IMG/VR virus record: IMGVR_UViG_3300046506_000114
Coordinates: 1 to 42,113 of that record
Direction: 5' to 3' (one strand)
Source of the DNA: a virus
Length of the DNA stretch: 42,113 nucleotides
Shown here: one piece after another, positions 19,356-41,914 of the stretch
Numbering within the stretch: the first letter of the stretch is position 1
How the letters are laid out: the number at the start of each line of letters is the position of its first letter
Notes under the pieces: generated by a model
Told to the model about the DNA's origin: nothing
The model's database searches: none
Seen by the model: only the letters and a program-made list of their open reading frames with translations
Made by a program: the position numbers and the translations under genes

Positions 19356-19718
19356 ATGAACCAGGACGAAAGCTACGAGGTGGACGAACTGCCGGCGCCG
19401 CCGCGCAAAGTCATCCCGTCCGCCGACCGCGAGCTGCTGGAGCTGGCCGCGCGCGCCCTCGGCGCTCGGTTCGAGGAGGTCGAGGGCGAGGGCTACGGTA
19501 ACCTGCACTTCCAGGACGGCTCAAGCCTAGTCGGCTGGAATCCGCTGCTGTTCGGCGGCGACACCTTCGAACTGGCGGTGACGCTAGACCTGCTGGGCGA
19601 CAACGCAACGTTTCAGCACCACCTGGCAACCGAGCAAAGCCGCGGCGGCGACCCGCTGGCGGCTGCCAAGCGCGCCGTCGTGCTTACCGCTGCCGCGACC
19701 GGGAAAGCAATGCGATAA
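19356..19718 (+). CDS. Phage protein of DUF2591-like type, unknown function
   Basis: 120 residues from ATG 19356 with GGAGGAAGG directly upstream. Residues 30-80 (LLELAARALGARFEEVEGEG, NLHFQDGSSLVGWNPLLFGG, DTFELAVTLDLLG) follow the small DUF2591-like phage pattern ending in W-N-P-L..G....L. A TACAAT -10-like string lies at 19322-19327 without a clear -35. A terminator follows at 19743. Confidence 0.75.
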   Translation: MNQDESYEVDELPAPPRKVIPSADRELLELAARALGARFEEVEGEGYGNLHFQDGSSLVGWNPLLFGGDTFELAVTLDLLGDNATFQHHLATEQSRGGDPLAAAKRAVVLTAAATGKAMR

Positions 19719-19742
19719 CCAGCCCTGCCCGCCACACGTAAC

Positions 19743-19765
19743 GCCGGCCCCGCGCCGGCTTTTTT
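19743..19765 (+). terminator. Terminator after the terminase block
   Basis: GCCGGC, a 5-nt loop, GCCGGC, then TTTTTT. It ends transcription after the terminase genes, and a promoter-like motif begins 13 nt later, so the virion genes probably have their own start. Confidence 0.85.
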
Positions 19766-19777
19766 ACGCCCGCGCCG

Positions 19778-19809
19778 GTATACGTACCCGGTAGCCCCCC
19801 TCATACGAT
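19778..19809 (+). promoter_or_regulatory. Late promoter-like motif, copy 1
   Basis: GTATACGTACC at 19778 and TACGAT at offset 27-32. The expected start (about 19816) lies just before the GGAGGGG ribosome site of the acetyltransferase gene. The same motif and spacing recur at 22635, 23726 and 37576. Confidence 0.6.
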
Positions 19810-19830
19810 GCTCGTCCATAGGAGGGGTCC

Positions 19831-20271
19831 ATGCTCACCATTCGAGAAATCCAAGCCGCCGAGCACATCGGCAAGGTCCAGCGCCTGCTGGCCGAGAACT
19901 GGGCCGAAACCGGCTTCGACTTCGACCTGTGTCCGGACGGCGAGATGATGCGCCGGCTGCAGGACGCCGATCTGCTGTTCGTCCTGGGCGCCTTCGACAA
20001 TGGCGAGCTGGTCGGCTACTCGTCCGCCCTGATTGCCCCTCACACCTTTAACCCCTCGATCGTCTGCTGCAACAGCGACGCGCTGTTCGTGCGCCGGGAA
20101 TGGCGCCCGCGCGGCGTCGGTGCCCGGCTCATCCTGGAGACCGAGCGCGTGGCCAAGGAAAAAGGCGCGTCTCGCATGCTCTGGCATACGCGCGCCGGCA
20201 CGCCACTGGCCGCAGCCCTCGAACGCAGGGGTTATGAACCCGCCGATGTCATTGTCATGAAGGAAATCTAA
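19831..20271 (+). CDS. GNAT-family N-acetyltransferase
   Basis: 146 residues. The acetyl-CoA site is visible as RREWRPRGVGARLILETERV (about 88-108; R-x-x-G-V-G-x-R-L form of the Q/R-x-x-G-x-G/A motif), followed by KEKGASRMLWHTRAGTPLAA and ERRGYEPADVIVMKE. It transfers an acetyl group to an unknown target. Its position between terminase and portal suggests modification of host or virion proteins. AGGAGGGG precedes the start; it would be the first product of the motif at 19778. Confidence 0.88.
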   Translation: MLTIREIQAAEHIGKVQRLLAENWAETGFDFDLCPDGEMMRRLQDADLLFVLGAFDNGELVGYSSALIAPHTFNPSIVCCNSDALFVRREWRPRGVGARLILETERVAKEKGASRMLWHTRAGTPLAAALERRGYEPADVIVMKEI

Positions 20272-20274
20272 TCT

Positions 20275-20592
20275 ATGGGTATCGAAGCCGCACTGATCGC
20301 CACTGCAATCGCAAGCACCGCCGCAGCCGTCTACAACGGGAACAAGGCTGCGAGCGCGCAGAAGGACGCCACCAACCAGGCCACCGCGAACGCCAAGGCC
20401 ACGGCCACGGCCGCCGAGCAGGCCAACAACAAGGCCAACCAGAAGAAGCCGGACAGCGGCGCGCTGCTGTCGGCAAACCTGACGGCGGGACAGAGCGGCC
20501 AGGCCAGCACCATGCTGACCGGCCCAGCAGGTGTCGACCCGAGCACGCTCACGCTCGGCAAGACCACGCTGCTGGGCGGCGGGGGTACCTGA
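20275..20592 (+). CDS. Small Ala-rich virion-associated protein, unknown function
   Basis: 105 residues. The N-terminal hydrophobic helix (IEAALIATAIASTAAAVYNG) is followed by a long Ala/Lys/Gln-rich helix and a conserved-looking end (LTGPAGVDPSTLTLGKTTLL). Proteins with the same ending sit before the portal gene in related phages. It starts 3 nt after the acetyltransferase stop and overlaps the portal start (TGATG). Confidence 0.72.
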   Translation: MGIEAALIATAIASTAAAVYNGNKAASAQKDATNQATANAKATATAAEQANNKANQKKPDSGALLSANLTAGQSGQASTMLTGPAGVDPSTLTLGKTTLLGGGGT

Positions 20593-22271
20593 TGACCCAA
20601 ACCACGACCCGCAACCAGTTGCTAAACCGGTGGAGCATGCTCAAGCGCGAGCGCGCCAGCTGGTTCTCGCACTGGCAGGAGATCTCCCGCAACCTGCTGC
20701 CCCGCCAGGGGCGCTTCTTCATCGAAGACCGCAACCGCGGCGAGCGCCGGCACAACGCAATCTACGACTCGACCGGCACCAGGGCGCTGCGCGTGCTGTC
20801 CGCTGGCCTGATGGGCGGCGCCACCTCGCCGGCCCGGCCGTGGTTCCGCCTGAAGGTCAAAGACACCGAGATGATGAAGTCCCAGGCCGTGAAGCAGTGG
20901 CTGGACGACGTCACCGGTCTGATCCTGGCCGTCTTCCAGAAGTCGAACACCTACCGCGCGCTGCACTCCCTCTACAACGAGATGGGCGGCTTCGGTACCG
21001 GCGCCAGCCTGATCGTCCCGGACTTCCGCAACGTCCTGCACCACCACCCGCTGACGACCGGGGAATACTGCATCGCGACCGACTGGCGCGGCGAGGTGTG
21101 CACGATCTACCGCGAATTCCAGACCACCGTGGGCAGCCTCGTGAAGGAGTTCGGCGCTGACAAGGTCAGCGCGACTGTCAAGGCGCTCTACGACCGTGGC
21201 GACCTGGACAGCTGGGTGACCGTCATCCACGCGATCGAGCCCCGCGCCGACCGCGACCCGACGAAGCTGGACCCGGCAAACATGGCCTGGGCCAGCACCT
21301 ACTTCGAGGCCGGCGTGAACGATGATCGGTACCTGCGCGAATCCGGCTTCAAGCGCTTCCCGGCCATCTGCCCGCGCTGGGACCTGGCCAGCGGCGACAT
21401 CTACGGAAACAGCCCGGGCATGGAAGCGCTGGGCGACATCAAGCAGCTCCAGCACCAGAACCTGCGCCTGGGCCAGGGCATCGACTACCAGACGAAGCCG
21501 CCGCTGCAGGTGCCCATCACGATGAAGAACCAGCCGATGGACACCCTGCCTGGCGGCGTCAGCTACTACGACCCGGCGACTGGCGGCGGCAAGGGCGCCA
21601 TCCAGAGCGCCTGGCAGGTGAATCTCGACCTGTCGCACCTGCGCGTGAACATGCAGGACGTTCGCCAGCGCATCGACGAGGCCTTCTACAAGGACCTCTT
21701 CCTGATGCTGTCGAACCTCGACAAGTCCGGCATGACCGCCACCGAGGTGGCCGAGCGCCACGAAGAGAAGCTTCTGATGCTGGGTCCGGTGCTGGAGCGC
21801 TTGGACAATGAGGCGCTGAGCCCGCTGGTCGACAACGCCTTCGACATGCTGCTGGCGGCGAACGCCCTGCCCCCGCCACCGCCCGAGCTCCACGGCCAGC
21901 AGCTGGACGTGGAATACACCTCGGTGCTGGCGCAGGCCCAGCGCGCCGTGGCCACCAACGGCGTCGACCGCTTCGTCGGCAACCTGGGCACGATCGCCCA
22001 GATGAAGCCTGACGTGCTGGACAACTTCAACGCTGACGAGTGGACGAAGATTTACAGCGACATGCTGGGCGTGCCGCCGAGCCTGATCACGGCATCCGAC
22101 CAGGTCGCAATGATCCGTCAGCAGCGCGCGCAGGCCCAGCAGCAGGCCGCCCAGCTCCAGGCCGCCGAGCAGGCGTCCGCCGCGGCGCGGAACCTTGGCG
22201 CCACCCCGACCGACGGCGGCAACGCCGCTTCCGACGTCATGGGAATGTTTTCCCAGGGCTTCGGCCAATAA
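20592..22271 (+). CDS. Portal (head-to-tail connector) protein
   Basis: 559 residues of the podophage head-tail connector family (T7 gp8/BPP-1 type): KRERASWFSHWQEISRNLLP, RQGRFF, then FGTGASLIVPDF, YGNSPGMEALGDIKQLQHQN, and GMTATEVAERHEEKLLMLGP. It forms the dodecameric ring through which DNA enters and leaves the capsid. The C-terminal 60 residues are Gln/Ala-rich (QQRAQAQQQAAQLQAAEQAS), as is common in this family. Length is typical. Confidence 0.93.
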   Translation: MTQTTTRNQLLNRWSMLKRERASWFSHWQEISRNLLPRQGRFFIEDRNRGERRHNAIYDSTGTRALRVLSAGLMGGATSPARPWFRLKVKDTEMMKSQAVKQWLDDVTGLILAVFQKSNTYRALHSLYNEMGGFGTGASLIVPDFRNVLHHHPLTTGEYCIATDWRGEVCTIYREFQTTVGSLVKEFGADKVSATVKALYDRGDLDSWVTVIHAIEPRADRDPTKLDPANMAWASTYFEAGVNDDRYLRESGFKRFPAICPRWDLASGDIYGNSPGMEALGDIKQLQHQNLRLGQGIDYQTKPPLQVPITMKNQPMDTLPGGVSYYDPATGGGKGAIQSAWQVNLDLSHLRVNMQDVRQRIDEAFYKDLFLMLSNLDKSGMTATEVAERHEEKLLMLGPVLERLDNEALSPLVDNAFDMLLAANALPPPPPELHGQQLDVEYTSVLAQAQRAVATNGVDRFVGNLGTIAQMKPDVLDNFNADEWTKIYSDMLGVPPSLITASDQVAMIRQQRAQAQQQAAQLQAAEQASAAARNLGATPTDGGNAASDVMGMFSQGFGQ

Positions 22272-22297
22272 CCCCACCACCCGAGAGGAACCCCGCC

Positions 22298-22627
22298 ATG
22301 GCCAACTTGGCAATGACACCCGAAGAAGCGAAAAGCGAATACGGCGCCGAGCCGACCGACAGCGACCTGCCGCGCTACCCGTACGGCCTGTCGATCTACC
22401 TGGACGACGACACCCTGAAGAAGCTGGGCATCACCGATCTGCCGAAGGTCGGCACTTCGATGCCGGCCACGATCACCGTCACGGTGACCGGTACCAGCCA
22501 GCGCGCCACCCAGTCGAACAAGGACGGCGAGCAGATGCGCACCTGCGTCGACCTGCAGATCACCGACATGGACATCACCATGCCCACCAAGTCGGCCGCC
22601 GACGTCCTGTACGGCACCAAGGGCTGA
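22298..22627 (+). CDS. Probable capsid staple/stabilising protein
   Basis: 109 residues from ATG 22298 (GAGAGGAA upstream). MTPEEAKSEYGAEPTDSDLP, then RYPYGLSIYLDDDTLKKLGI, TDLPKVGTSMPATITVTVTG and CVDLQITDMDI match small head proteins encoded beside portal genes and annotated as capsid staple-like. This is recalled from family patterns; a decoration or stabilising role on the capsid is inferred. Confidence 0.72.
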   Translation: MANLAMTPEEAKSEYGAEPTDSDLPRYPYGLSIYLDDDTLKKLGITDLPKVGTSMPATITVTVTGTSQRATQSNKDGEQMRTCVDLQITDMDITMPTKSAADVLYGTKG

Positions 22628-22634
22628 CGCCCGC

Positions 22635-22666
22635 GTATACGTCCCACACATGGCCGCGCCTACAGT
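22635..22666 (+). promoter_or_regulatory. Late promoter-like motif, copy 2
   Basis: GTATACGTCCC at 22635 and TACAGT at offset 27-32. If it is a promoter, the start would be at about 22673, next to the ATG at 22674, giving a leaderless message. Confidence 0.5.
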
Positions 22667-22673
22667 GGCGGCC

Positions 22674-22997
22674 ATGGAAGACTTTGACCCCCTCGATACC
22701 GAACTGCAGCAGGCCCAGCGCGAAGCCGACGACAAGCGCCGGGATCTCGCCCGCAAGCAGGAAGTAGCCGATTTCCAGTGGTTGATGGCCGACCCGCGCG
22801 GCCGGCGCATCGTGTGGCGCCAGCTGGCCGCCGCCGGCGTTTTCCAGTCCAGTTTCGACCCCACCGCCATGAATATGGCTTTCAACGAAGGGCGCCGCTC
22901 GGAAGGCCTGCGCCTGCTCGCGCAGGTGCATGAGCTGGGCCCCGATCTCTACGTGACCATGATGAAGGAGCAATCGAAATGCCAGGAGAAACCCTGA
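22674..22997 (+). CDS. Bbp19-like phage protein
   Basis: 107 residues from ATG 22674; an in-frame ATG at 22650 would add 8. The C-terminal half (DFQWLMADPRGRRIVWRQLA, GVFQSSFDPTAMNMAFNEGR, RSEGLRLLAQVHELGPDLYV) matches the small head-region protein of Bordetella phage BPP-1 known as Bbp19. The N-terminal half is a charged helix. Role unknown, probably head assembly. It overlaps the scaffold gene by 19 bp. Confidence 0.8.
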   Translation: MEDFDPLDTELQQAQREADDKRRDLARKQEVADFQWLMADPRGRRIVWRQLAAAGVFQSSFDPTAMNMAFNEGRRSEGLRLLAQVHELGPDLYVTMMKEQSKCQEKP

Positions 22998-23710
22998 TCA
23001 CCGACGCAGCACCGGCAGCCGCAACCCCAGCCGCAACGGCACCCGCCGCCGGCGACGCAGCCGCAACCGCAGCCCCGGCAGCAGGCCAGGCCGACGCGCA
23101 AGCCGCAGCAGCCGGCGCAACACCGGCGGGCGGCAACGAAGGCGGCGAAGCCGGCCAGCCTGGCGAGCAGACCGCCGAACAGAAAGCCGCCGACGAAGCC
23201 GCGGCGGCTGAAGCTGCCGCAGCCGAGGCTGCCAAGGCCGCAGGCGCACCCGAGAAGTACGAGCCCTTCGTTGCCCCGGAAGGCACCGCGCTCGACGCCA
23301 CCGTCCTGACGCAGTTCGAAGAAGCCGCGCGCGAGCTCAACCTGCCGCAGGACAAAGCCCAGCAGCTGATCGACAAGATGGCGCCGGCGATGGCCCAGCA
23401 GCAGGCTGCGCAGATGCAGCAGCTGTCCCAGGACTGGCAGGCGGCTGCCACCGCCGACAAGGAATACGGTGGCGACAAGCTGGCCGAGAACCTGGCCTAC
23501 GCCACCAAGGCGGTCGACACCTTCGCCAGCCCCGAGCTGAAGACCATGCTGCGCGAGACCGGCTTGGGCAACCATCCCGAGCTGGTGCGCTTCATGGTCC
23601 GCGCCGGCAAGGCCATCAGCGAAGACAAGATCGTCACCGGCGGCGCTCCGGCCAGCGCGAGCCGCTCGGCTGCCGAAGTGCTGTACGGCGCCACCGCAGC
23701 AAAGAAATAA
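22979..23710 (+). CDS. Scaffold/head assembly protein
   Basis: 243 residues. The first 90 are low-complexity Ala/Pro/Gly/Glu-rich, probably disordered. The folded part (FEEAARELNLPQDKAQQLID, KMAPAMAQQQAAQMQQLSQD, LGNHPELVRFMVRAGKAISE) is helical and typical of scaffold proteins encoded just before the major capsid gene. It should guide prohead assembly and leave before packaging. The Ala-rich GC run may cause alignment trouble but not a frame break. Confidence 0.83.
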   Translation: MPGETLITDAAPAAATPAATAPAAGDAAATAAPAAGQADAQAAAAGATPAGGNEGGEAGQPGEQTAEQKAADEAAAAEAAAAEAAKAAGAPEKYEPFVAPEGTALDATVLTQFEEAARELNLPQDKAQQLIDKMAPAMAQQQAAQMQQLSQDWQAAATADKEYGGDKLAENLAYATKAVDTFASPELKTMLRETGLGNHPELVRFMVRAGKAISEDKIVTGGAPASASRSAAEVLYGATAAKK

Positions 23711-23725
23711 GTCCCCTCCGCGGCG

Positions 23726-23757
23726 GTATACGTACCGCCGCGCGCCTTATCTACTCT
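23726..23757 (+). promoter_or_regulatory. Late promoter-like motif, copy 3 (upstream of the capsid gene)
   Basis: GTATACGTACC at 23726 and TACTCT at offset 27-32. Here the motif core sits within a 10-bp perfect inverted repeat (CGCGGCGGTA-TACG-TACCGCCGCG, written with its loop), so an RNA hairpin with a UACG loop is also possible. The major capsid gene starts at 23816. Confidence 0.58.
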
Positions 23758-23815
23758 TCAGTCTCACCGAACAAGCAGCCCTCGGTTTTACCCTCACCCA
23801 CTGGAGAAACAACAT

Positions 23816-24835
23816 ATGGCACTTTTAGCAGCTGGCGCCCTCACCCTCGCCGACTGGGCAAAGCGTCTCGATCCTGACGGCCAGGTGCCGAAGGTGGCAG
23901 AGCTCCTGTCCCAGACCAACGAAATCCTGGAAGACGCCGTTTTCAAAGAAGGCAACCTGCCCACCGGCCACCGCGTGACCATCCGCACCGGCCTGCCGCA
24001 GGTCTTCTACCGCATGATCAACCAGGGCGTTCCGACCTCCAAGTCGACCAGCACCCAGATCGACGAGGCATGCGGCATCCTGGAAGCACGCTCGCACATC
24101 GACGTCGAACTGGCGAAGCTGAACGGCAACGAAGCCGCGTTCCGCCTGTCGGAAGACGAAGCCTTCATCGAGGCGATGAACCAGACCATGGCCGGCGCCA
24201 TGTTCTACGGCAACCCGGGCACCGACCCGCGCCAGTTCTTGGGCCTGCAAACCCGCTACAGCTCGCTGAGCGCTGGCAACGGCCAGAACATCCTGGACGC
24301 CGGCGGCACCGGCTCGAACAACACCTCGATCTACCTGGTGGTCTGGGGCGAAAACACCGTGTTCTGCCCGTTCCCGAAGGGCTCGAAAGCCGGCCTGCAG
24401 CACCAGGATCTGGGCGAAGAGTCGGTACCGGACTCCAACGGTAACTTCTTCCAGGCGCTGCGCGCGCTGTACCAGTGGAAGAACGGCCTGGTGGTCAAGG
24501 ACTGGCGCTACGTGGTGCGCATCGCGAACATCAACGTGTCCGACCTGACCGGCCAGACCGCTACCCAGGCTGCCGCAGCCGCGACCGCCATCATCAACCT
24601 GATGATCCGCGCCATGGACCGCCCGCCGAATCTGGCGATGGGCCGCCCGGTGTTTTACGCCAACCGCACCGTGTACTCGATGCTGCGCGTGGCCGCCCTC
24701 AACAAGTCGAACAACGCCTTGTCGATCGAGAACGCCACCAACCAGTTCGGCAATGCGTACAAGATGACCAACTTCATGGGCATCCCGCTGCGCAAGGTCG
24801 ACCAGCTGCTGAACACCGAGTCGCGCGTCGTCTAA
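23816..24835 (+). CDS. Major capsid protein
   Basis: 339 residues: MALLAAGALTLADWAKRLDP, QVPKVAELLSQTNEILEDAV, then TRYSSLSAGNGQNILDAGGT and NLAMGRPVFYANRTVYSMLR, the layout of the BPP-1-type major capsid protein with an HK97-like fold. Position after portal and scaffold and before the cement protein agrees. It forms the icosahedral shell. Own ribosome site (GGAG) and an upstream promoter-like motif suit high expression. Confidence 0.92.
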   Translation: MALLAAGALTLADWAKRLDPDGQVPKVAELLSQTNEILEDAVFKEGNLPTGHRVTIRTGLPQVFYRMINQGVPTSKSTSTQIDEACGILEARSHIDVELAKLNGNEAAFRLSEDEAFIEAMNQTMAGAMFYGNPGTDPRQFLGLQTRYSSLSAGNGQNILDAGGTGSNNTSIYLVVWGENTVFCPFPKGSKAGLQHQDLGEESVPDSNGNFFQALRALYQWKNGLVVKDWRYVVRIANINVSDLTGQTATQAAAAATAIINLMIRAMDRPPNLAMGRPVFYANRTVYSMLRVAALNKSNNALSIENATNQFGNAYKMTNFMGIPLRKVDQLLNTESRVV

Positions 24836-24865
24836 GCGCTACTCACTGAATAAGGAACCATAGAC

Positions 24866-25354
24866 ATGATCCTCGACGCAGCAATGCTTCTCTCCGGTTC
24901 GTATAGCGCCAATGGCGTGCTGACCGGCCAGGCGGTGAACGGCGCAGGCAACATCCTGTCGTCCAACACCATCGACATCGCACCGCTGACTACCGGCGGC
25001 AACCAGGCAGGCGACATCGGCGTCGGCGAAGAACTGTACGTCGAGTTCTCGGTGCTGACCGCGCCCACCGGTGGCACCAACGTGCGCTTCCAGCTGATCC
25101 AGGCGGATGACGCCGCGCTGACCCAGAACGTGCAGGTCATCAACCAAACCGACGATCTGCCGATCGCCAACCTGGCAGCCGGCACCATCGTCCCCCTGCA
25201 CTGGGATCCGGCGGCGCCGTACGCGCCGAAGCGTTACGTCGGCGCGCGCTACGTGAACACCGGTGCGATCGCGACCTTCTCGGTGGCGGCCGCGGTCACG
25301 AAGAACGTCCAAGCCCGCCAGACCAGCCTGAAGTCGGGCTACTCGGTCTCCTGA
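24866..25354 (+). CDS. Bbp16-like capsid cement protein
   Basis: 162 residues: DAAMLLSGSYSANGVLTGQA, SSNTIDIAPLTTGGNQAGDI, GVGEELYVEFSVLTAPTGGT, HWDPAAPYAPKRYVGARYVN. Beta-rich, beginning MILDAAMLLSG, it matches the cement protein of BPP-1 (Bbp16), which binds the capsid surface as dimers and stabilises it. It directly follows the capsid gene, with AAGGA upstream. Confidence 0.87.
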   Translation: MILDAAMLLSGSYSANGVLTGQAVNGAGNILSSNTIDIAPLTTGGNQAGDIGVGEELYVEFSVLTAPTGGTNVRFQLIQADDAALTQNVQVINQTDDLPIANLAAGTIVPLHWDPAAPYAPKRYVGARYVNTGAIATFSVAAAVTKNVQARQTSLKSGYSVS

Positions 25355-25414
25355 TAAACCATGAAGCGGCGGGGGCGCTGCCCCTGCCAACCTTCCCCTG
25401 ACATAGGAAAGAAC

Positions 25415-26017
25415 ATGAACCGTCATCTGAAAAACTCGCGCTTCGGCGCTTCCCTGGTGGCCGTGGCCCTGGCCGGTTGCATGATCGAAGCCGCAGGCGC
25501 TGGCGAAGTCGGCGCTGCTCGCAAGCCGGTTAAGTACCGCGTGAAGGAAAAATCCCTGATCGGCAACACGCTGTACGAAGCTGGCCAGGAAGCTGAATAC
25601 GACGGCCTGCCGGCTGACAACCTGGAACCGTTGTGCGACGAAGGCCGCGCCCGCGCCGCCGAATACGAGCAGTCGAACAAGGCTCGCGTGCAGAAAATGG
25701 TCGCTGCCAATCAGGAAAGCGCCGTGGGCGACCCGGCCGCCTTTGCCGCTGCCTTCGCCAAGCAGCTGGCCGAAGAGCGCGCCGAACATCAGGCGCAGCT
25801 GGCCGCACAGCAGGAAACGATGGCCAAGATGCTGGAGATGCAGCAGCAGTCCGCCACCCAGCTGGCCGAGGCAGCGAAGAACATGGCTGTTCTGGCCGCC
25901 GCCCTCACCCAGGCGCAAGCCGCACCTGCACCTGAGCCCGCAGCGCCGGTGGCACCGGAAGCACCGGCCATCGAGGAGAAGCCGACCGAGAAGGCCGCAG
26001 CCAAGACCAAGGGCTGA
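25415..26017 (+). CDS. Head-region protein with coiled coil and a lipobox-like N-terminus
   Basis: 200 residues from ATG 25415 (AGGAAAGAAC upstream). Residues 1-22 (MNRHLKNSRFGASLVAVALA then GC) look like a lipoprotein signal: basic start, hydrophobic core, L-A-G-C. The middle (KYRVKEKSLIGNTLYEAGQE, AEYDGLPADNLEPLCDEGRA) resembles proteins encoded beside capsid genes. Residues about 105-170 form a Gln/Glu/Ala coiled coil, followed by a Pro/Ala/Glu tail. It may be a structural protein with a chance signal or a real envelope protein. A terminator follows. Confidence 0.75.
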   Translation: MNRHLKNSRFGASLVAVALAGCMIEAAGAGEVGAARKPVKYRVKEKSLIGNTLYEAGQEAEYDGLPADNLEPLCDEGRARAAEYEQSNKARVQKMVAANQESAVGDPAAFAAAFAKQLAEERAEHQAQLAAQQETMAKMLEMQQQSATQLAEAAKNMAVLAAALTQAQAAPAPEPAAPVAPEAPAIEEKPTEKAAAKTKG

Positions 26018-26049
26018 TCCGGCACCTCGCCAGCACCCCGACCATGACA

Positions 26050-26079
26050 AAGGGCGATCTCTCGGGGTCGCCCTTTTTT
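26050..26079 (+). terminator. Terminator after the capsid block
   Basis: AAGGGCGA (26050-26057) pairs with TCGCCCTT (26068-26075), followed by a T-run. It lies 33 nt past the coiled-coil protein gene and 17 nt before the adaptor gene, so it should limit read-through from the strongly expressed head genes. Confidence 0.85.
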
Positions 26080-26095
26080 CTTTCCGGAGAACCGC

Positions 26096-26752
26096 ATGTC
26101 ATCTGAAGTAGAAATCTGCAACCTGGCGCTGGCCCACCTGGGCGACGGCGCGACCGTGGCCAGCATCGACCCGCCCGAAGGATCGGCGCAGGCCGAGCAC
26201 TGCGCACGGTGGTATCCGACCGCGCGAGACTCGCTGCTCGAGATGCAGGAATGGGGCTTCGCGACTACGCGCGCCCTGCTGGCCGAGCTGGTGAATCCGT
26301 TCCCGCAATGGGCCCACGCCTATGCGCGCCCATCCGACTGCCTGAAGGTGCTGGGCATTCTGCCGGCTGACGCCACTGGCGACGTCGCCAGCGTCATCCC
26401 TCAGGACTGGGTCTACGGCGGTGTGCAATGCACGACCTATACCCCGCAGGACTTCGCCACCGAAATCGACGCCGCCACCGGAAACCAGATCATCTTAAGC
26501 AACCAGGGGAATGCACTGGTGCGCTACACGCGCGCGATCACCGACACCAGCAAGTTCTCGCCGCTGTTCCGTGATGCGCTGGGCTGGTACCTGGCCAGCT
26601 ACCTGGCCGGCCCGGTCCTGAAGGGTGAAACCGGCATCAACGTCGGCCAGGCCATGCTGAAGATCGCCCTGGGTCTGCTGAGCAATGCCGCGGTGTCGAG
26701 CGCGAACCAGAACGGCCGGCAGCAGGTGCAGGCCTATCCCTGGAGCCGCTGA
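26096..26752 (+). CDS. Tail adaptor protein (tail tubular protein A-like)
   Basis: 218 residues: SSEVEICNLALAHLGDGATV, then HCARWYPTARDSLLEMQEWG, YARPSDCLKVLGILPADATG and ALGWYLASYLAGPVLKGETG. The ICNLALAHLG opening and the W-x-F/W-A...A.L helix are the marks of podophage gp11-like adaptor proteins that join portal and nozzle. Its gene lies just before the nozzle gene, as usual. Confidence 0.85.
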   Translation: MSSEVEICNLALAHLGDGATVASIDPPEGSAQAEHCARWYPTARDSLLEMQEWGFATTRALLAELVNPFPQWAHAYARPSDCLKVLGILPADATGDVASVIPQDWVYGGVQCTTYTPQDFATEIDAATGNQIILSNQGNALVRYTRAITDTSKFSPLFRDALGWYLASYLAGPVLKGETGINVGQAMLKIALGLLSNAAVSSANQNGRQQVQAYPWSR

Positions 26753-26753
26753 C

Positions 26754-28811: not shown

Positions 28812-28821
28812 GGAGAACACC

Positions 28822-29370
28822 ATGGGAATTGCAGCAGGAGCAGCAGGACCAGCGCTGCTGGGCGCACAAGTGGCCGGGGCCGCGGCCTCGACCGTCGGCG
28901 CCTACTACAGCGCCCGGTCACAACAGATCAGCGCACGGGGCGCCGCCGAGATCGCGGACCTCAACGCCGGCCAGTCTGAACTCGCCGCCCAGCAGGAGCT
29001 GGCGCGCGGTAACGCTGCCGTGGCGACAGCCACCCAGCGCGCCGGCCAGGTGAAGGGAGCGCAGCGCGCGGCGTTCGCTGCCAACGGAGTGGATCTCGGT
29101 ACCGGTAGCGCGGCCGAAGTGCTGACGTCTACCGACCTGGCGAAAGAGAACGACATCAACACCATCACCGCCAATGCCGTGCGCGCGGCGTGGGGACAGC
29201 GCATGCAGGCGACGAACTTCAAGAACGAGGCGCTGACGAAGCGCGCCGGCGCCGACTCGATCAGCCCGGGCATGGCCGCCTTCACGTCGCTACTGGGAAG
29301 CGCGACCCAGGTGGCCAGCACCTGGTACATGCTCAACAAGCCTGTGGCGCCAGCCACGAAAGGAGCCTAA
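28822..29370 (+). CDS. Internal virion protein (gp14-like)
   Basis: 182 residues. Two hydrophobic Ala/Gly-rich segments near the start (AAGAAGPALLGAQVAGAAAS) and end (AAFTSLLGSATQVASTWYML) surround a long helical middle (GQVKGAQRAAFAANGVDLGT, GSAAEVL). The pattern fits small ejected proteins of podophages such as T7 gp14, which form a channel in the outer membrane. Ribosome site GAGGAG upstream. Confidence 0.8.
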   Translation: MGIAAGAAGPALLGAQVAGAAASTVGAYYSARSQQISARGAAEIADLNAGQSELAAQQELARGNAAVATATQRAGQVKGAQRAAFAANGVDLGTGSAAEVLTSTDLAKENDINTITANAVRAAWGQRMQATNFKNEALTKRAGADSISPGMAAFTSLLGSATQVASTWYMLNKPVAPATKGA

Positions 29371-29373
29371 TCG

Positions 29374-31566
29374 ATGCCTACCGTCCCAACCTATAACGGC
29401 GTCGGCGTGGCGCCATCCTCTGCACCGGGCGGAGGATTCTCGACAACCACGGCCGGCAACGCCCAACCGCAGCAGCTCCAGCAGCTGGGCGAAACCGTCC
29501 AACGTGGCGGCCAGCAGCTTGCCAATGTGGTGGTCGACATGCAGCAGCAGGTCAACCAGGTGCGCGTCGACGACAGCCTGAACAAGCTGCGCCAGCAGAT
29601 GCTGAACCTTACATACGACGAGAAGACCGGCTACAAGGCGCTCACTGGCGATGCGGCGCTGACCCGCCCCAGCGGCCAGCCCCTGGCCGAAGAATACGGC
29701 GGCAAGCTGCAATCCTCCATCACCGAACTGGCAAGCAGCTTGGGTAACGATGCGCAGCGTCTGACGTTCAGCCAGCAAGCCAACAACCTGCTGACCCAGT
29801 TCCGCGGCGGCATCGAGCAGCACACCCTTGAGGAATACCGGAAATTCTCCCTTTCCACGCAGGACGGCACGATCAAGCTCGGCGCCGAGGAAGCGAAGCG
29901 AAACTGGCAGGATCCGGACAAGATCAAGCCGGCGCTGGACAGCGTACGGGCTGCGGTCGTACGCATGGGCACCCTGCAAGGCTGGTCGGCCAACGACACC
30001 ACCGCCCGCATGCGCGAGGTCACCAGCAGCGTGCATAGCAACGTCATCGACGCTGCGCTGCAGCAGAACAACCCCGAGTACGCCATGGGCTACCTGGAGC
30101 GATTCAAAGATGAGATGACCGCCGACGACGTGCTCAAGGTGCGCGGCGTGATCAATAAGGACGTCTATCAGCGCGTGGCCGACGGTATCGCTACCAACGT
30201 GGTCACCGCGGCGCGCTCGCAGGCCACGCCTTCCGACCTCGGCCGCATGGTCGACATCACCCTGAAGAGCGAAAGCGGGAATCGCGAGCGCAACGCCGAC
30301 GGCAGCCTGATCACCTCCGCGAAAGGAGCCCAGGGCGCCATGCAGGTGATGCCCGGTACCCGCATCGATCCGGGCTTCGGCGTCACCCCGGCCAAGGACG
30401 ACAGCGACGCCGAGCGCAGCCGCGTGGGCCGCGACTACCTGCAGGCCCTGGTGAAGAACTATGCGGGCGACCCCGCGAAGGCCTGGGCAGCGTACAACTG
30501 GGGCCCGGCCAAGGTCGACGCCGCGATCAAGGAACACGGCGTCGACTGGCTGAGCCACGCACCAGAGGAAACCCGCAACTACGTGGCGAAAAACATGGCG
30601 GCCCTTGGTACCGGCGCCGGCGCGACGAAGCCCACGCTGCAGCAGGTGCACGACCAGGTGCGCTCCCAGGTCGAAGCAAAGTTCGGTGCCACGCCCCCGG
30701 CGGGCGTGCTGAAGCTGGCCCTGGCGAGCGCCACCCAGCAGTTTGAGGACTTGAGCAAGGCGATCAAGGCGGACGAGGACCAGCGCGTCACCGTCGCCAT
30801 GCAGGGTCTGATGCAGAACGGTGGCCGGTTCTCGGCGCTGCCCTATGCCGTGCGCTCGCAGATCCCGGCCGACCGGGTCGACAACGTGCTGTCGTTCGCC
30901 CAGAAGGTGGCCAAGGGCGACGACATCACCAACCCGGCCGTCTACCAGAAGCTGAGCGACCCACTGACCCTGCGCCGCCTGTCGGACAACGAATTTTTCC
31001 AGCTGCGCGCCGAGCTGTCCGAAGCGGACTTCAAGCACTTCAGCGCACAGCGGGCGGCTGCTCTCGACAAGAGCACCAACAAGACCGAGGAAATCAACAT
31101 GTCGGCCATGAACTCCGCGCTGCGCGACCGCTTCCAGAGCCTTGGAATGGACCCGACGCCGAAGGACGGCAGTGACGAGGCCGCGCGCGTGGGCGCCATC
31201 AAGAAGTTCGTCACCGACAGCATGCTGTCGCAGCAGAAGATTACCGGAAAGCAGATGACGGATGCCGAAGTCGAGAAACACATCGACGGACTGTTCGCGA
31301 AATCGGTCAGCTTCCGCACCTCGTTCCTCGGCTTCGATTCGGGCAAGACCAGCCAGCGGCTGCTGACGGTCCAGGCCAGCGACATCCCGGGCGAAACTCG
31401 CGACGCCCTGATCAAGGACTTCAAGGCGCACGGCATCGACAAGCCGACCGACGCCGACCTGCTGGGCGCGTACTTCCGCCTGAAGCAGCTGCCCGGCCAG
31501 CCCGCGCCGTTCCGCCAATCCGCCCAAGCCAAGGCTGGGAAAATCACCCTCGCAAAAGGACAGTAA
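29374..31566 (+). CDS. Internal virion protein with lytic transglycosylase domain
   Basis: 730 residues. A soluble lytic transglycosylase domain lies at about 292-395: catalytic E300 in TLKSESGNRERN, then AKGAQGAMQVMPGT and PAKAWAAYNWGPAKVDAAIK. It cuts peptidoglycan so that ejected proteins and DNA can cross the cell wall. The long flanks (Gln-rich helical N-terminus, helical C-terminus) are typical of ejected proteins. It stands between the gp14-like protein and the giant internal protein, as in related podophages. Confidence 0.9.
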   Translation: MPTVPTYNGVGVAPSSAPGGGFSTTTAGNAQPQQLQQLGETVQRGGQQLANVVVDMQQQVNQVRVDDSLNKLRQQMLNLTYDEKTGYKALTGDAALTRPSGQPLAEEYGGKLQSSITELASSLGNDAQRLTFSQQANNLLTQFRGGIEQHTLEEYRKFSLSTQDGTIKLGAEEAKRNWQDPDKIKPALDSVRAAVVRMGTLQGWSANDTTARMREVTSSVHSNVIDAALQQNNPEYAMGYLERFKDEMTADDVLKVRGVINKDVYQRVADGIATNVVTAARSQATPSDLGRMVDITLKSESGNRERNADGSLITSAKGAQGAMQVMPGTRIDPGFGVTPAKDDSDAERSRVGRDYLQALVKNYAGDPAKAWAAYNWGPAKVDAAIKEHGVDWLSHAPEETRNYVAKNMAALGTGAGATKPTLQQVHDQVRSQVEAKFGATPPAGVLKLALASATQQFEDLSKAIKADEDQRVTVAMQGLMQNGGRFSALPYAVRSQIPADRVDNVLSFAQKVAKGDDITNPAVYQKLSDPLTLRRLSDNEFFQLRAELSEADFKHFSAQRAAALDKSTNKTEEINMSAMNSALRDRFQSLGMDPTPKDGSDEAARVGAIKKFVTDSMLSQQKITGKQMTDAEVEKHIDGLFAKSVSFRTSFLGFDSGKTSQRLLTVQASDIPGETRDALIKDFKAHGIDKPTDADLLGAYFRLKQLPGQPAPFRQSAQAKAGKITLAKGQ

Positions 31567-34500
31567 ATGCCTGACGATCTCCAGCCCGACACCGCCGGCG
31601 CCGTCGCCGCCTACTTGAACCAGCAGCAGCCGGCGCGCGCCGCGCAGGCCTCGATGTCGGTGGCCATTGACGCCAACCCCGACTTCGAAGCGGAGCTGCG
31701 CCGCGCCAGCGCGCGCACCGGTGTGCCGCTCGATTCCGCCCGCGCTTTCCCGGAAGATGTGAAGCGTCAGGCCGCCGTCCAGCAGCACGACTACGACGAG
31801 CTGGCCGCGCGCTTCCCGACTACCACCAAGTTCCTGGTCGATCCGGACAACGCCCGCCTGGCGCACGACGATGTGCAGAACCTGTCCAGCACCGAGGCAA
31901 CCATCGGCCCCATCGTCGGGCCGAAGCCGTCGTTCTTCAGCGTGGCCGGTGGATTGCTCAAGTCTCTGCCAACCGGTGCCGACATGGCACGCCAGGGCAT
32001 CCGCATGCAGATGGCCGACCTGTTTGGCTTCAAGGCGGTAGGCGACGATGCCCGCAGCAAGTATTCCCAGCTGGCCCTGGAGCAGCAGATCGACACCCCA
32101 GAGTTCCAGAGCAGCACAGCGCAGGCGGTGTATGGCGGCGCCACCAGCACCGTGCGTGCCGTGCCCGGCCTGCTTGCATCGCTGGCCACGCGCAGCCCCA
32201 CCCCCCTGCTGGCTACGATCGGCGTGCAGACTGAAGCCGATGCCTATGGCAAGTACCGCGCGCGCGGCGCCACGCCGGGCGAGGCCCTGGTCGGCGGCGC
32301 TGCCGAGGGTGCTGTCGAGGTCGGTACCGAATTGCTGCCGATGTCCTTCCTGGTGAAGAACCTGGGCAGGACCGGCGCGGGCCACTTCCTGACCGGCCTG
32401 CTGGCACGCGAGGTGCCGGGGGAACAGATCGCCACCGTGGTGCAGGATGCGATCGACACTGCCGTGGCGAACCCCGACAAGACCTGGCGCGAGTACCTGG
32501 CCGAGCGGCCGAACGCCGCCTATCAAACGTTGGTCGCCACGGTGACGCAGGCGGCGATCATGGAAGGCGGCAACGCCGGCCTGGCGCGCGTGCACGGCCG
32601 CACTCAGGAAGCCCAGCACGCTGCCGACGTAGGCCAGGCACTCGGCCAGCTCAACACCCTGGCCGCCGCGTCGAAGGTGCGAGAGCGCGACGCCAGCACG
32701 GCGCAGGCCTTCTTCCAGTCCCTGATGCAGGACGGGCGCGATACCGTCTGGATCACCCCGCAGGCGCTGGCCGATTCCGGCATGCTGGAACATGTGGCGC
32801 AGGCGCTGCCGGGCGTGGCCGCCCAGCTCGAGCAGGCTGCTAACACGAACACCGACATCTGGATCCCGGTGGCCCACCTGATGGCGAACATGGCTGGGCC
32901 CGAGCTGGCGCAGTCGATCATCCCGCACCTGTCCGACGAGCCGGGCGGCTTCACCCAGACCACCGCTGCCGAATACCTGCAGAGCGGTGCTGCCAAGGAA
33001 CTGGCCGACGAGGTCGCGCGTGCGCTGGCTGCCAAGCAGGCCGACGACGCCTTCACGGCGTCGCGCCAGAAGGTCGAAGCGGGTTTCCTCGAACAGCTGA
33101 ACAGTATCGACCGGTTCGCGCCCGAGGTGAACCAGGCGTACGCCGCCATGATCAGCAACTTCTTCGCCGTCCAGGCCGCTCGGCTGGGCGTCACGCCCGA
33201 GGCCATGGCGCAGAGGTATCCGCTGGAGGTGCAGGCCGAAAGATTGGTCGGCCCCCGTACGCTCGATCAGGGCGCCACTGGTCTCGATGCTGTACGCCAG
33301 GCGTGGGACGCCGCCGGCATCGACCACTTCGTCAGCGAGCGCAAGGGCGTCATCACCCTGGCCAAGATCGTTGTCCCGGAAAACGAGCGCGAGGAAGGAC
33401 GGGGCACGGCCGCGCTGCAGCAGCTGGTCGACTATGCGGACCAGACCGGCCAGAGGATCGCCCTGACGCCGTCGGCCGATTTCGGCGGGAACAAGAAGCG
33501 GCTGACCGAGTTCTACAAGCGCTTCGGCTTCGTCGAGAACAAGGGCAAGAACGCCGACCACGAGATCAGCGACAGCATGTACCGCCCGGCAAGCACCGTG
33601 CTGCACCAGCCGCGAGACACCCGGGCGGAGCCAGACACTCGGCGCGGTTCGATCGCGCTGGCCGAGGACATCACGGAGGCGCCGAGCATCATCACCCTGC
33701 TGCGCAACGCCGACCTGTCCACCTTCCTGCACGAATCGGGTCACTTCTTCCTGGAAGTGATGAGCGACATCGCCAACCGTCCGGATGCCCCCCAGAGCGT
33801 GAAGGACGACATGGCCAAGACGCTGGAATGGTTCGGCGTGCCGGACCTGGCCACGTGGAACACGCTCGACATGGAGGAAAAACGCCCGCTGCATGAGCAG
33901 TTTGCCCGCGGCTTCGAAGCCTACCTGTTCGAAGGAGGCGCGCCTGCCACCGAGCTGCGGGGCGTGTTCGCGCGGTTCCGCAGCTGGCTGGTCAACGTGT
34001 ACCGTACCATCACCGCTCTGGACGTCGAGCTCTCGACCGAGGTGCGAGGCGTGTTCGGCCGCATGTTGGCCAGCACCGAGGCGATCAGCGAAGCTGAGCA
34101 CGAAGCCGGGCTCGCCGGCATGTTCGGCACCAAGCCGGAATTTATGACCGACGAGGAGTGGACGGCGTATCGGGCCCTGAGCATCGGCGCCACTGAGAAG
34201 GCTACCCGCGAGCTGGAGACCCGCGCCCTGCACGACATGAAGTGGCTGTCGAACGCGAAGGCCAAGGAGCTGGCCCGCCTGCAGCGCGACGCCGCCGCGA
34301 AGCGCAAGGCGATCCGGGACGAGGTCAGCGCCGAGGTAATGGCGCAGCCGATCAACCTGGCGCGCCGGTTCCTGACGCATGGCGAATTGCCGGATGCCGA
34401 TCGCAACCGCACCCAGCGCCGCATTCTGGAAGACGCGGGCCTGAACGGCACGAAGCTGAACCTGGACGTCCTGAAGGAGATGTACGGCGATGGCCCGGCC

Positions 34501-37500
34501 GCGCCCTGGCGCTACCTGCCGCCCGGAAAGCGCGGCCTGGTCACCGCCGAGGGCGGGCTGACGCCGGACGTGGTGGCCGAGCTGTTCGGCTTCGACTCTG
34601 GTGACCAGCTGGTGCGCGAGCTGCTAGCGGCCGAGAAGCCGGCCGACGAGATCTCACGCCTGACCGACCAGCGCATGCTGGAGCGCCACGGCGACCTGGT
34701 GGACGAGCAGGCCCTGGCGCGCGCCGTCGACGAGGCGGTCTATTCGAACGCGCATGCCCGCTTCGTCGCCACCGAGATGAACGCCCTGGCCAAGGCTGCC
34801 GGCAAGCCGGCCGTGCTGGCCAAGGCCGCCAAGCTGTACGCCGAGCAGATCGTGGCGCGCACGCCGGTCAACCAGCTGCGCCCCGACCAGTTCACCCGCG
34901 CCGCCGCGCGCGCCGGCAAAGCCGCCGACGCTGCCTTCAAGAAGGGCGACATCCAGACGGCAGCCGCCGAGAAGCAGACCCAGCTGATCAACACCTACGC
35001 CGCCAAGGCTGCGCTCGATGCGCGCGCCGACATCGAGAAGATCATGGATCGCTTCGGTACCATGACGCGCGGGAACAACGAAAAGGTGTCGAAGACCCGC
35101 GATCTGGACATGGTGATGGCCACCCGTGCCATTCTGGCCGAGTTCGACATCGGCACGCGAGGCAAGAAGGCGACCGAGTACTTGGCCGCCGTCGAAGCCT
35201 ACGATCCGGCTATGGCCACGGTGCTGCGCGAGCGCATCGACGCCACCACCGAGAACGCCCGCCCGTACCAGGAACTGACGGTCGAGCAACTGCGCGGCCT
35301 GCGCGATGAGGTCGAATCGCTGTGGTACCTGGCCCGCCGCTCGCGCCAGATGGAGGTCGATGGCGACCTTTTGGACCGCGAGGAGATCCAGAGCCAGCTG
35401 CGCGCCCGACTGGAAGAGATCGGCATCCCGGAAACGGCCCCCGGTGAAGGCCGCTCGATCACGCCCGGCGAGGTGAACCTGTCTAAGCTGCAGTCGCTGC
35501 GCGCTGCGCTGCGCCGCGTGGAGGCCTGGGCCGACGCCAAGGACGGCGCCAACACGAAGATGGGTCCGTTCCGCCGTTTCATCTGGAACACGATCAAAGA
35601 CCCGGCCGATGCCTACCGCGCTGACAAGGCCCGGTACCTGAAGAAGTATCGCGACCTGCTCGATGCGATCGCGCCGACCCTCAAGCCGGTGAAGATTGCG
35701 GCGCCCGAGCTGGGCTATACCTTCGGCTTCGACCAGGGTGGCATGGGCAAGGTCGAGCTGCTGCATGCGATCCTTCACACCGGGAATGCCGGCAACAAGA
35801 AAAAGCTGCTGCTGGGCCGCGGCTGGGGCCAGGTGCTGGAGAACGGCGAGTTGGATACCAGCCGCTGGGATGCCTTCGTCAACCGCATGATCAAGGAAGG
35901 TACGCTGACCAAGGCAGACTTTGACTTCGCCCAGGGCGTATGGAACCTGCTCGAGGAAATGAAGCCGATGGCCCAGAAAGCGCACCGCGAGGTGTTCGGC
36001 CGCTACTTCGACGAGGTGACCGCCGATGCCTTCGATACCCCTTGGGGTCGCTACGCCGGCGGCTACGTGCCGGCCATGACCGACTCGCGCATCGTCACGG
36101 ACGCCAAGACGCGCGGCATCATGGAAGAGGAGAACGCCAACCTGATGAACGCCCTGCCCAGCACCAGCAAGGGATTCACCAAGGCCCGCGTGGAGTACAA
36201 CCGCCCGCTGCTGCTGGACCTGCGCCTGCTGTCCCAGCACATCGACAAGGTGCTGCTGTTCTCTCACCTGGAAGGGCCGGTGCGCGACGTGCGTCGGATC
36301 CTGGGCAGCAACGACGTGGCCACGCCGCTGCACCGGGTCGACCCGGCAGCTTACGACGGCCTGCTGACCCCATGGCTGAACCGCACCGCGCGCCAGCAGG
36401 TCGAGACGCAGGTGTCCGGCTCGAACGGCCTAATGCGCTTCTTCTCGGTGGTGCGCTCGCGCGCCGGCATGGCGGCGATGTTCGCCAACGTGTCGAACAC
36501 GGCCCAGCAGATCACCGGCTTCTCGATCGCCGCTCTGCGCGTGAAGCCATCCTACCTTGCCAGCGCCGCCGTCGACTTCATCCGCTCGCCCAAGCAGATG
36601 GCCGACTTCGTGGCCGAGGCCTCGCCATACATGGCCAACCGGATGGAAAATGAGGTCGGCGCTATGACCGACGCCATCAACGACATCCTGCTGAGCCCGA
36701 ACGTGTACCAGAAAGCGGTAGCCTGGACCCAGAAGCACACCTACTTCCTACAGTCGGCGGTCGACAACGTAATGGGGCCGATCATCTGGCATGGCGCCTA
36801 CAACCAGGCGATGGAAACAGCGCCGGACGGCATGTCGCAGGAGGAGCTGCAGCTGTACGCCCGCCGCCTGGCCGATTCCGCCGTGCGCGAGACCCAAGGC
36901 AGCACCCTGCCCGAGGACATCAGCCGCATCGAAACCGGCAACGCCTTCGTCCGGATGTTCACCCAGTTCGCCGGCTACTTCAACATGCAGGCCAACATCT
37001 TGGGCACCGAGTTCGCCAAGGTGGCGCAGGACACCGGCCTGCGCAAGGGCGCTGGACGTGGCTTCTATATCCTCCTGTTCGGCTTCTTCGCCCCGGCCTG
37101 GGTGGCGCAGGCCATCGCGCTGGCCTTCCGCGGCGGCCCGGACGACGACGACAAGAACGGCAGCTATCTGGACGACTGGATCGCCCAGGTGTTCGGCTGG
37201 GGTACGCTGCGCGCGGGCACCGCGCTCGTACCGGTGGTCGGCCAGACCGTCAATGCTCTGGCGAACAGCTTCAACAAGAAGCCGTACGACGACAGGATCA
37301 GCACCAGCCCCGCGATCAGCATGATCGAAAGCGCGGTCAGCGTGCCTTCGGACGTCTACCGCCTGGCGGCCGGCAACGGCTCGGCGACCAAGACCGTGCG
37401 CGATGTGGCCAGCCTGATCTCGCTAACCGTCGGCGTGCCCGCCAGCGCGGTCGCTCGCCCGGCTGCCTACCTGACCGACGTCCAGACCGGGAAGGCGCGG

Positions 37501-37572
37501 CCGACCGGGCCGGTAGACGTGGCGCGCGGGGCTATTACCGGCGCCGCCAGCCCGGCCAGCAAGGACCGATAG
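31567..37572 (+). CDS. Giant internal virion (ejection) protein, polyvalent: GNAT and zincin-like regions
   Basis: 2001 residues, starting directly after the previous stop. Regions: about 570-680 resembles a GNAT acetyltransferase (GVITLAKIVVPENEREEGRG, TAALQQLVDYAD, FYKRFGFVENKGKN); about 715-800 resembles a zinc metallopeptidase, H722-E723-S-G-H726 with E784 in FARGFEAYLFEGG as a possible third ligand. Long helical stretches (about 870-1450) follow, and hydrophobic segments near the C-terminus (GRGFYILLFGFFAPAWVAQA) could enter membranes. It fits the T7 gp16-like last core protein, and the polyvalent proteins ejected by phages to act on the new host. The large opposite-strand frame here is a shadow. 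Confidence 0.88.
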   Translation: MPDDLQPDTAGAVAAYLNQQQPARAAQASMSVAIDANPDFEAELRRASARTGVPLDSARAFPEDVKRQAAVQQHDYDELAARFPTTTKFLVDPDNARLAHDDVQNLSSTEATIGPIVGPKPSFFSVAGGLLKSLPTGADMARQGIRMQMADLFGFKAVGDDARSKYSQLALEQQIDTPEFQSSTAQAVYGGATSTVRAVPGLLASLATRSPTPLLATIGVQTEADAYGKYRARGATPGEALVGGAAEGAVEVGTELLPMSFLVKNLGRTGAGHFLTGLLAREVPGEQIATVVQDAIDTAVANPDKTWREYLAERPNAAYQTLVATVTQAAIMEGGNAGLARVHGRTQEAQHAADVGQALGQLNTLAAASKVRERDASTAQAFFQSLMQDGRDTVWITPQALADSGMLEHVAQALPGVAAQLEQAANTNTDIWIPVAHLMANMAGPELAQSIIPHLSDEPGGFTQTTAAEYLQSGAAKELADEVARALAAKQADDAFTASRQKVEAGFLEQLNSIDRFAPEVNQAYAAMISNFFAVQAARLGVTPEAMAQRYPLEVQAERLVGPRTLDQGATGLDAVRQAWDAAGIDHFVSERKGVITLAKIVVPENEREEGRGTAALQQLVDYADQTGQRIALTPSADFGGNKKRLTEFYKRFGFVENKGKNADHEISDSMYRPASTVLHQPRDTRAEPDTRRGSIALAEDITEAPSIITLLRNADLSTFLHESGHFFLEVMSDIANRPDAPQSVKDDMAKTLEWFGVPDLATWNTLDMEEKRPLHEQFARGFEAYLFEGGAPATELRGVFARFRSWLVNVYRTITALDVELSTEVRGVFGRMLASTEAISEAEHEAGLAGMFGTKPEFMTDEEWTAYRALSIGATEKATRELETRALHDMKWLSNAKAKELARLQRDAAAKRKAIRDEVSAEVMAQPINLARRFLTHGELPDADRNRTQRRILEDAGLNGTKLNLDVLKEMYGDGPAAPWRYLPPGKRGLVTAEGGLTPDVVAELFGFDSGDQLVRELLAAEKPADEISRLTDQRMLERHGDLVDEQALARAVDEAVYSNAHARFVATEMNALAKAAGKPAVLAKAAKLYAEQIVARTPVNQLRPDQFTRAAARAGKAADAAFKKGDIQTAAAEKQTQLINTYAAKAALDARADIEKIMDRFGTMTRGNNEKVSKTRDLDMVMATRAILAEFDIGTRGKKATEYLAAVEAYDPAMATVLRERIDATTENARPYQELTVEQLRGLRDEVESLWYLARRSRQMEVDGDLLDREEIQSQLRARLEEIGIPETAPGEGRSITPGEVNLSKLQSLRAALRRVEAWADAKDGANTKMGPFRRFIWNTIKDPADAYRADKARYLKKYRDLLDAIAPTLKPVKIAAPELGYTFGFDQGGMGKVELLHAILHTGNAGNKKKLLLGRGWGQVLENGELDTSRWDAFVNRMIKEGTLTKADFDFAQGVWNLLEEMKPMAQKAHREVFGRYFDEVTADAFDTPWGRYAGGYVPAMTDSRIVTDAKTRGIMEEENANLMNALPSTSKGFTKARVEYNRPLLLDLRLLSQHIDKVLLFSHLEGPVRDVRRILGSNDVATPLHRVDPAAYDGLLTPWLNRTARQQVETQVSGSNGLMRFFSVVRSRAGMAAMFANVSNTAQQITGFSIAALRVKPSYLASAAVDFIRSPKQMADFVAEASPYMANRMENEVGAMTDAINDILLSPNVYQKAVAWTQKHTYFLQSAVDNVMGPIIWHGAYNQAMETAPDGMSQEELQLYARRLADSAVRETQGSTLPEDISRIETGNAFVRMFTQFAGYFNMQANILGTEFAKVAQDTGLRKGAGRGFYILLFGFFAPAWVAQAIALAFRGGPDDDDKNGSYLDDWIAQVFGWGTLRAGTALVPVVGQTVNALANSFNKKPYDDRISTSPAISMIESAVSVPSDVYRLAAGNGSATKTVRDVASLISLTVGVPASAVARPAAYLTDVQTGKARPTGPVDVARGAITGAASPASKDR

Positions 37573-37575
37573 CGC

Positions 37576-37607
37576 GTATACGTACCCGGGGCGCTACTGC
37601 TGAGAAT
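37576..37607 (+). promoter_or_regulatory. Late promoter-like motif, copy 4 (upstream of the tailspike gene)
   Basis: GTATACGTACC at 37576 and GAGAAT at offset 27-32, 4 nt past the stop of the giant ejection gene. The expected start (about 37614) would give a short leader for the tailspike gene at 37634. AGCGC/GCGCT flank the motif as an imperfect inverted repeat. Confidence 0.55.
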
Positions 37608-37633
37608 GCAGCTTTCCCAGCGGAGCGCCCCGT

Positions 37634-41833: not shown

Positions 41834-41863
41834 ACAAAAAAGCCCTTGAAGATCAAGGGCTTT
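41834..41863 (-). terminator. Phage-supplied terminator for the host tRNA-Ser gene
   Basis: A perfect 11-bp stem (41839-41849 with 41853-41863), 3-nt loop, and TTTTTT on the minus strand. It lies 7 nt past the tRNA 3' end and inside the prophage, in the orientation of the tRNA. Confidence 0.88.
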
Positions 41864-41865
41864 CG

Positions 41866-41914
41866 TATTCTGGCGGAGAGAGGGGGATTCGAACCCCCGA
41901 TAGGCTATGAACCT
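41866..41914. repeat. Right attachment site, 49 bp within tRNA-Ser
   Basis: Identical to 965-1013. Here the core is part of an intact tRNA gene, so the phage carries the tRNA 3' end and restores the gene on integration. Confidence 0.95.

Follow-up and report, generated by a model that had tools for sequence, protein, structure and literature searches.

A BPP-1-like provirus and its late region

By its gene content, the window (the whole stretch of DNA that we analysed, 42,113 nt) is the provirus of a BPP-1-like podophage. It encodes an integrase, replication genes, a terminase small subunit, a portal, Bbp19 and a PF20911 capsid protein, and it carries a 56-nt direct repeat (961-1016 and 41862-41917, 96% identical) whose two copies are probably the prophage attachment sites; the copy at 41862-41917 overlaps a tRNA-Ser gene. 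In a scan that took a single genome from each species, Massilia sp. PDC64 had the closest capsid relative among the matches listed. An ORF at 15166-15846 contains a Tad2-like (Thoeris anti-defence) domain within its C-terminal part. The features considered below are the following (promoter numbers refer to predicted promoters).

16635-16964, + strand: 109-aa helix-turn-helix (HTH) protein, proposed late activator, orthologue of Bbp27; recognition helix at residues 73-80
19743-19759, + strand: intrinsic-terminator-like stem followed by a T run, preceding promoter 1
19778-19788, + strand: element copy 1 (GTATACGTACC), 5' of the acetyltransferase/portal operon; same gap in relatives such as L005, L006, L007, L052 and L085
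19804-19809, + strand: -10-like hexamer of copy 1, TACGAT; TACGAT, TAGGAT or TAGCAT at equal spacing in relatives
19831-20271, + strand: GNAT acetyltransferase, first gene past promoter 1
22635-22645, + strand: element copy 2 (GTATACGTCCC), 5' of the Bbp19-like gene
22661-22666, + strand: -10-like hexamer of copy 2, TACAGT, 7 nt ahead of the ATG at 22674
22674-22997, + strand: Bbp19-like protein; proposed start ATG 22674, not 22650
23726-23736, + strand: element copy 3 (GTATACGTACC), 5' of the major capsid gene, within a 10-bp perfect inverted repeat at 23719-23742
23752-23757, + strand: -10-like hexamer of copy 3, TACTCT
23816-24835, + strand: major capsid protein (PF20911)
37576-37586, + strand: element copy 4 (GTATACGTACC), 5' of the putative tailspike gene; same gap in relatives
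37602-37607, + strand: -10-like hexamer of copy 4, GAGAAT, kept in the relatives examined
37634-39559, + strand: putative tailspike ORF past promoter 4 (label from the first-pass annotation; here an ORF only)

A repeated element at a fixed distance from -10-like hexamers

The window contains exactly four copies of the sequence GTATACGTMCC, always in late gaps and on the + (late) strand, with none on the other strand. The first-pass annotation had placed copies at 19778, 22635, 23726 and 37576; a scan of the whole window recovered each of them on the + strand and no additional ones inside genes. In 100 dinucleotide shuffles of the window the element never appeared (chance expectation 0). When two mismatches were allowed, 9 occurrences were counted against a shuffle mean of 6.6, which is no excess above chance. 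The signal thus consists of four near-identical copies, with no gradient of degenerate ones, and degenerate extra copies were rejected.

The description of the copies as lying directly past a stop codon or a terminator proved accurate: stop codons precede copies 2-4 (22625-22627, 23708-23710 and 37570-37572) and the terminator-like stem precedes copy 1. Likewise, all four are followed by a hexamer with A at offset 28 and T at offset 32 (1-based), and the distance between the end of the 11-mer and the start of the hexamer is 15 nt in every case. Three hexamers have the TAnnnT form of a -10 box and the fourth, GAGAAT, is a weak -10. Beyond element and hexamer, the four copies have little sequence in common. 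No promoter of the sigma70 consensus (TTGACA-like -35 at 16-18 nt from the -10) was found in 19600-38000, so that ordinary consensus promoters were rejected as drivers of the late region. No element copy lies upstream of the window terminase genes, and the transcription of these genes must therefore come otherwise.

A capsid search retrieved 80 viral loci. A subset of close relatives contained the exact motif, mostly in the same gaps and with the hexamer at equal distance, including the tailspike-gap copy with its GAGAAT; absence from these gaps, which the first-pass annotation would have counted against a promoter, was not what we found. The broader word GTAYACGTHCC was present in eight viral records, with 3-4 copies each, all on one strand per record. 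One relative (L007) carries GTACACGTMCC at every one of its copies and has a recognition helix unlike that of its close relatives; such a concerted change of all copies is expected if they share a trans-acting reader. Conserved gaps and spacing, together with this concerted change within a phage, argue strongly for the late-promoter reading proposed in the first-pass annotation. Six other relatives (L010, L012, L026, L029, L033 and L043) have an extra element copy at or just past the end of the HTH gene, where none was found in the window.

The capsid gap is particular. In five relatives (L051, L053, L009, L024 and L058) the 3' end of the protease gene, with GGIRSTADTLYP-like codons, contains the element. 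These codons constrain the element, which counts against the promoter reading, and the window capsid copy, one frame of which encodes GIRTAARLIYS, may be left over from such protease codons.

A family-wide site and a covarying HTH protein

GTATACGTMCC is one variant of a predicted late promoter found family-wide in BPP-1-like podophages, with the consensus GT-n3-n4-n5-C-G-T-n9-n10-C / 15 nt / TAnnnT. More distant relatives have a different yet alignable word in the same gaps, among them BPP-1, Limnohabitans phage DC33, two Manatee Spring podoviruses and Caulobacter phage SR18. When each of 59 phages was searched with the word of its own bbp19 gap, we obtained 162 forward against 4 reverse matches, the words having been chosen by eye and one match per phage being the seed itself; counting only matches with a -10-like hexamer, the figures were 141 and 0. 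As a control, searching with words from other phages produced 0.08 forward and 0.15 reverse matches per locus. Of 222 loci with bbp19 and sufficient sequence ahead of it, 170 had a site according to a caller that takes no account of bases 3-5. The spacing was 15 nt in 157 of these 170, and at these 157 sites the -10 bases T, A and T had frequencies of 0.90, 1.00 and 1.00, although the caller rewards these bases. In 110 of the 170 sites the bbp19 start codon lies 6 nt past the -10 hexamer, that is, about where transcription should begin, which implies a leaderless bbp19 mRNA; the transcript from copy 2 of the window is probably leaderless too.

In the Bordetella phage BPP-1 itself (L097), GTGCCCGTGCC occurs four times exactly, always on the late strand: three copies lie ahead of bbp24, bbp19 and bbp9, and the fourth is close to where the small terminase gene is annotated to begin. 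This last copy, near 26293, lies inside the annotated start of bbp26 and is followed by AAAACT and, 6 nt on, by an ATG that may be the true bbp26 start. A literature search, mainly of openly accessible papers, found no description of a late promoter or late regulator of BPP-1.

The first-pass annotation had named the HTH protein at 16635 as a candidate reader of the element. Its gene (16635-16964) is located directly ahead of the window terminase genes, and its BPP-1 orthologue is Bbp27, annotated 'endonuclease', whose gene adjoins that of the small terminase. Relatives of the HTH gene are present in many of the loci with enough upstream sequence. Among loci with at least 8 kb upstream of bbp19, 54 have both HTH gene and site, 13 have neither, 7 have the HTH gene only and 2 the site only. 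Three of the HTH-only loci (L007, L058 and L054) contain the element elsewhere, and the available sequence of one site-only locus (L051) begins inside the large terminase gene. The phages that the HTH protein matched included neither phiV10 nor BcepC6B. No part of the HTH protein alignment was sufficiently conserved to serve as a query against the collection. The adjacent protein (16968-17294) was rejected as reader of the element, as it matched only close relatives among the loci searched.

In an AlphaFold model of the HTH protein, residues 45-80 form a confidently predicted three-helix HTH with strands on either side (20-27 and 91-98), and helix 73-80 contains residues 77 and 78. Its profile matches are weak and fall on the HTH domains of endonucleases, recombinases, transposases and sigma region 4; a fold search returned generic three-helix HTH matches only, none of them at E 0.001 or better. 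Among the best profile matches (phrog_6156 and phrog_20467) are the HTH domains of phage HNH endonucleases, from which the 'endonuclease' label of Bbp27 may stem. However, at 78-109 aa the HTH part alone is matched, and both gene position and covariation with the element point to regulation.

The covariation concerns above all two positions of the recognition helix. In a pooled set of 74 phages, Arg77 goes with G3 and Gln77 with A3 in 39 out of 39 cases; Arg-G and Gln-A are the usual residue-base pairings. The class of residue 78 agrees with the state of base 5 in 73 of the 74, where Gly, Ser, Asp or Ala goes with G5. Residues 77 and 78 were the top HTH columns for bases 3 and 5, respectively, already in the first set of 39 phages, whose elements were read off by eye. 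In 36 new phages from further scans, whose elements were called without sight of the HTH sequence, the pairings were R77-G in 7/7, Q77-A in 6/6, D78-G in 6/6, K/R/N/Q78-not G in 27/27 and G78-G in 2/3. Two phages were left out of the pooled test, L211 on account of two element calls with nearly equal scores and L175 for want of a credible site.

Shared ancestry can produce such patterns, and the MI z-scores, which it inflates, were dropped as proof. For base 3, capsid columns reached z 12.9 against 21.0 for residue 77, but for base 5 a capsid column reached 21.9 against 15.0 for residue 78. As MI z alone fails to separate HTH protein from capsid, the case rests on leave-one-out prediction, tree simulation and the held-out set. 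In leave-one-out prediction among 55 non-redundant phages, the HTH column that best predicted base 3 was residue 77 (0.89, against 0.80 for the best capsid column), and for base 5 it was residue 78 (0.82 against 0.67); residue 32 predicted base 10 at 0.85 (capsid 0.71). Residue 78 and base 5 underwent 12 changes on the capsid tree, and none of 4000 simulations on either tree reached the observed value. For residue 77 and base 3, with only 2-3 independent changes on the trees, the value was reached by 2 of 4000 simulations on the capsid tree and 0 of 4000 on the HTH tree. Other positions are less clear-cut. Residue 32/base 10 had no exception in the first set and was weaker in the second (Y-T 10/13, L-C 8/12), and a residue 84/base 7 pairing is suggestive (I-A 5/5 in the second set). 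The recognition helix does not explain base 4, for which the best predictor column lies outside it and has little margin over a majority guess. Co-occurrence and recognition-helix covariation, the latter partly out of sample, thus favour the HTH protein as the reader.

Predicted late activation and alternative explanations

We consider it highly likely that the four copies form the -35-region part of sigma70-type late promoters, in which the -35 box would be replaced by the predicted binding site of a phage HTH activator. The HTH protein at 16635 very probably turns on the late genes through this element. The early right operon would supply the HTH protein, which would bind the 11-bp element at about -38 to -28 in place of a -35 box, while host RNA polymerase with sigma70 would recognise the TAnnnT -10 box, leading to the switch-on of the head, Bbp19, capsid and tailspike operons. 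The missing -35, the position of the element and the -10 box agree with an activator that would stand in for the contacts of sigma region 4. From the comparisons above we infer the RNA start at these sites, binding of the element by the protein, activation instead of repression, contact with RNA polymerase and the early-to-late order. The covariation between residue 32 and base 10 would suit a single protein that spans the site, and the GGTA-TACG-TACC symmetry seen in some copies would be in keeping with a dimer. A more ambitious proposal is that one small HTH protein with an N-terminal arm replaces the sigma region 4 contacts family-wide and follows a readable code (77/base 3, 78/base 5, 84/base 7 and 32/base 10), from which the element of an unseen phage could be predicted from its protein; we advance it tentatively, as a serious possibility that we lean slightly against.

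It is improbable, but less so than the other alternatives, that the element is an operator through which the HTH protein represses late promoters, activation coming from elsewhere. Repressors, too, bind in the -35 region, with which the site overlaps, and covariation identifies the reader, not its effect. Yet, in a late region without sigma70-consensus promoters, there would be little for a repressor to block, and the HTH gene is placed between the replication region and the terminase, a usual place of late activators or Q. A -35 box for a host alternative sigma factor, with the HTH gene uninvolved, would suit the position of the element; we regard this as very unlikely, since the 7.5-Mb genome of Massilia sp. 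PDC64 has only four GTATACGTMCC copies, all within a prophage, and the element varies among phages and covaries with a phage HTH protein.

Equally hard to credit is that the copies act as RNA hairpins in processing or termination, an option that the first-pass annotation had kept beside the promoter, reporting flanking inverted repeats in three of the four copies. The capsid copy does form a strong hairpin (10-bp symmetrical arms, shuffle z -2.97), and in the relative L042 the shorter stem of this gap retains its pairing despite changed flanking bases. By contrast, copies 1, 2 and 4 fold no better than shuffles, which leaves a stable stem in one of four copies and the fixed -10 spacing and HTH covariation unexplained; a processing hairpin was thus rejected as the general function. 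Least probable of all is a duplicated or codon-conserved sequence devoid of promoter function and covarying by shared ancestry only: capsid columns correlate with element bases too and the capsid copy may derive from protease codons, but the tree-aware simulation, the held-out phages and the scarcity of shared sequence outside element and hexamer speak against it.

A late promoter read by the HTH protein would resemble the T4 middle promoters activated by MotA/AsiA, in which the host sigma70 -10 is kept and the -35 is replaced by a phage element with a phage activator; the MotA box is centred at -30, 12 +/- 1 bp from the -10 (PMC2988021). Here, instead, 15 nt separate the end of the element from the -10 and the proposed reader is a small HTH protein. 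The mode would be functionally like that of T4 MotA or Mu C, with a different protein. Mor and C of Mu are phage DNA-binding activators that act at promoters without a -35 box. The likeness is one of activator type: profile similarity is very weak (phrog_836, 'late transcriptional activator', E 0.004, for one orthologue), and the Mor/C family was absent from the Pfam matches of 38 HTH orthologues. Xpf of PBSX and the positive control sigma-like factors are small sigma-like HTH proteins controlling phage late genes; one orthologue showed a weak likeness to them (NF005385, E 0.0009), far below the cut-off, and no membership follows from this score. No match to a Q-type antiterminator was found among the scanned window ORFs between replication and terminase, and the distant relative Tr60_Ab31 has an annotated Q-like gene. 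In phiV10 (L098), a different word, CATATGTGGTT, is repeated at 3308 and 20921 ahead of two late genes and is followed by an A/T-rich -10-like sequence; the pre-terminase gene there encodes a different regulator.

If our reading is correct, it would show how a widespread family of podophages switches on its late genes; BPP-1, the model phage for diversity-generating retroelements, belongs to this family. One predicted promoter of BPP-1 lies just 5' of bbp9, the gene preceding the mtd/avd/brt tropism cassette, and may therefore set the timing of cassette expression. A protein now labelled endonuclease would be re-labelled as a likely regulator, and the family would offer a natural series of activator/site pairs for studying the joint change of a DNA-binding protein and its sites.

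Finally, a SAAxxLYG-like C-terminal peptide ends different head-region genes: those at 22040-22627 and 22979-23710 in the window (...KSAADVLYGTKG and ...RSAAEVLYGATAAKK), bbp20 (SSAAQRLYGASSMSA), and p09 and p13 of phiV10 (AAEVLYGK and KSAAETLYGNGGE). This ending is possibly a shared recruitment or cleavage tag.
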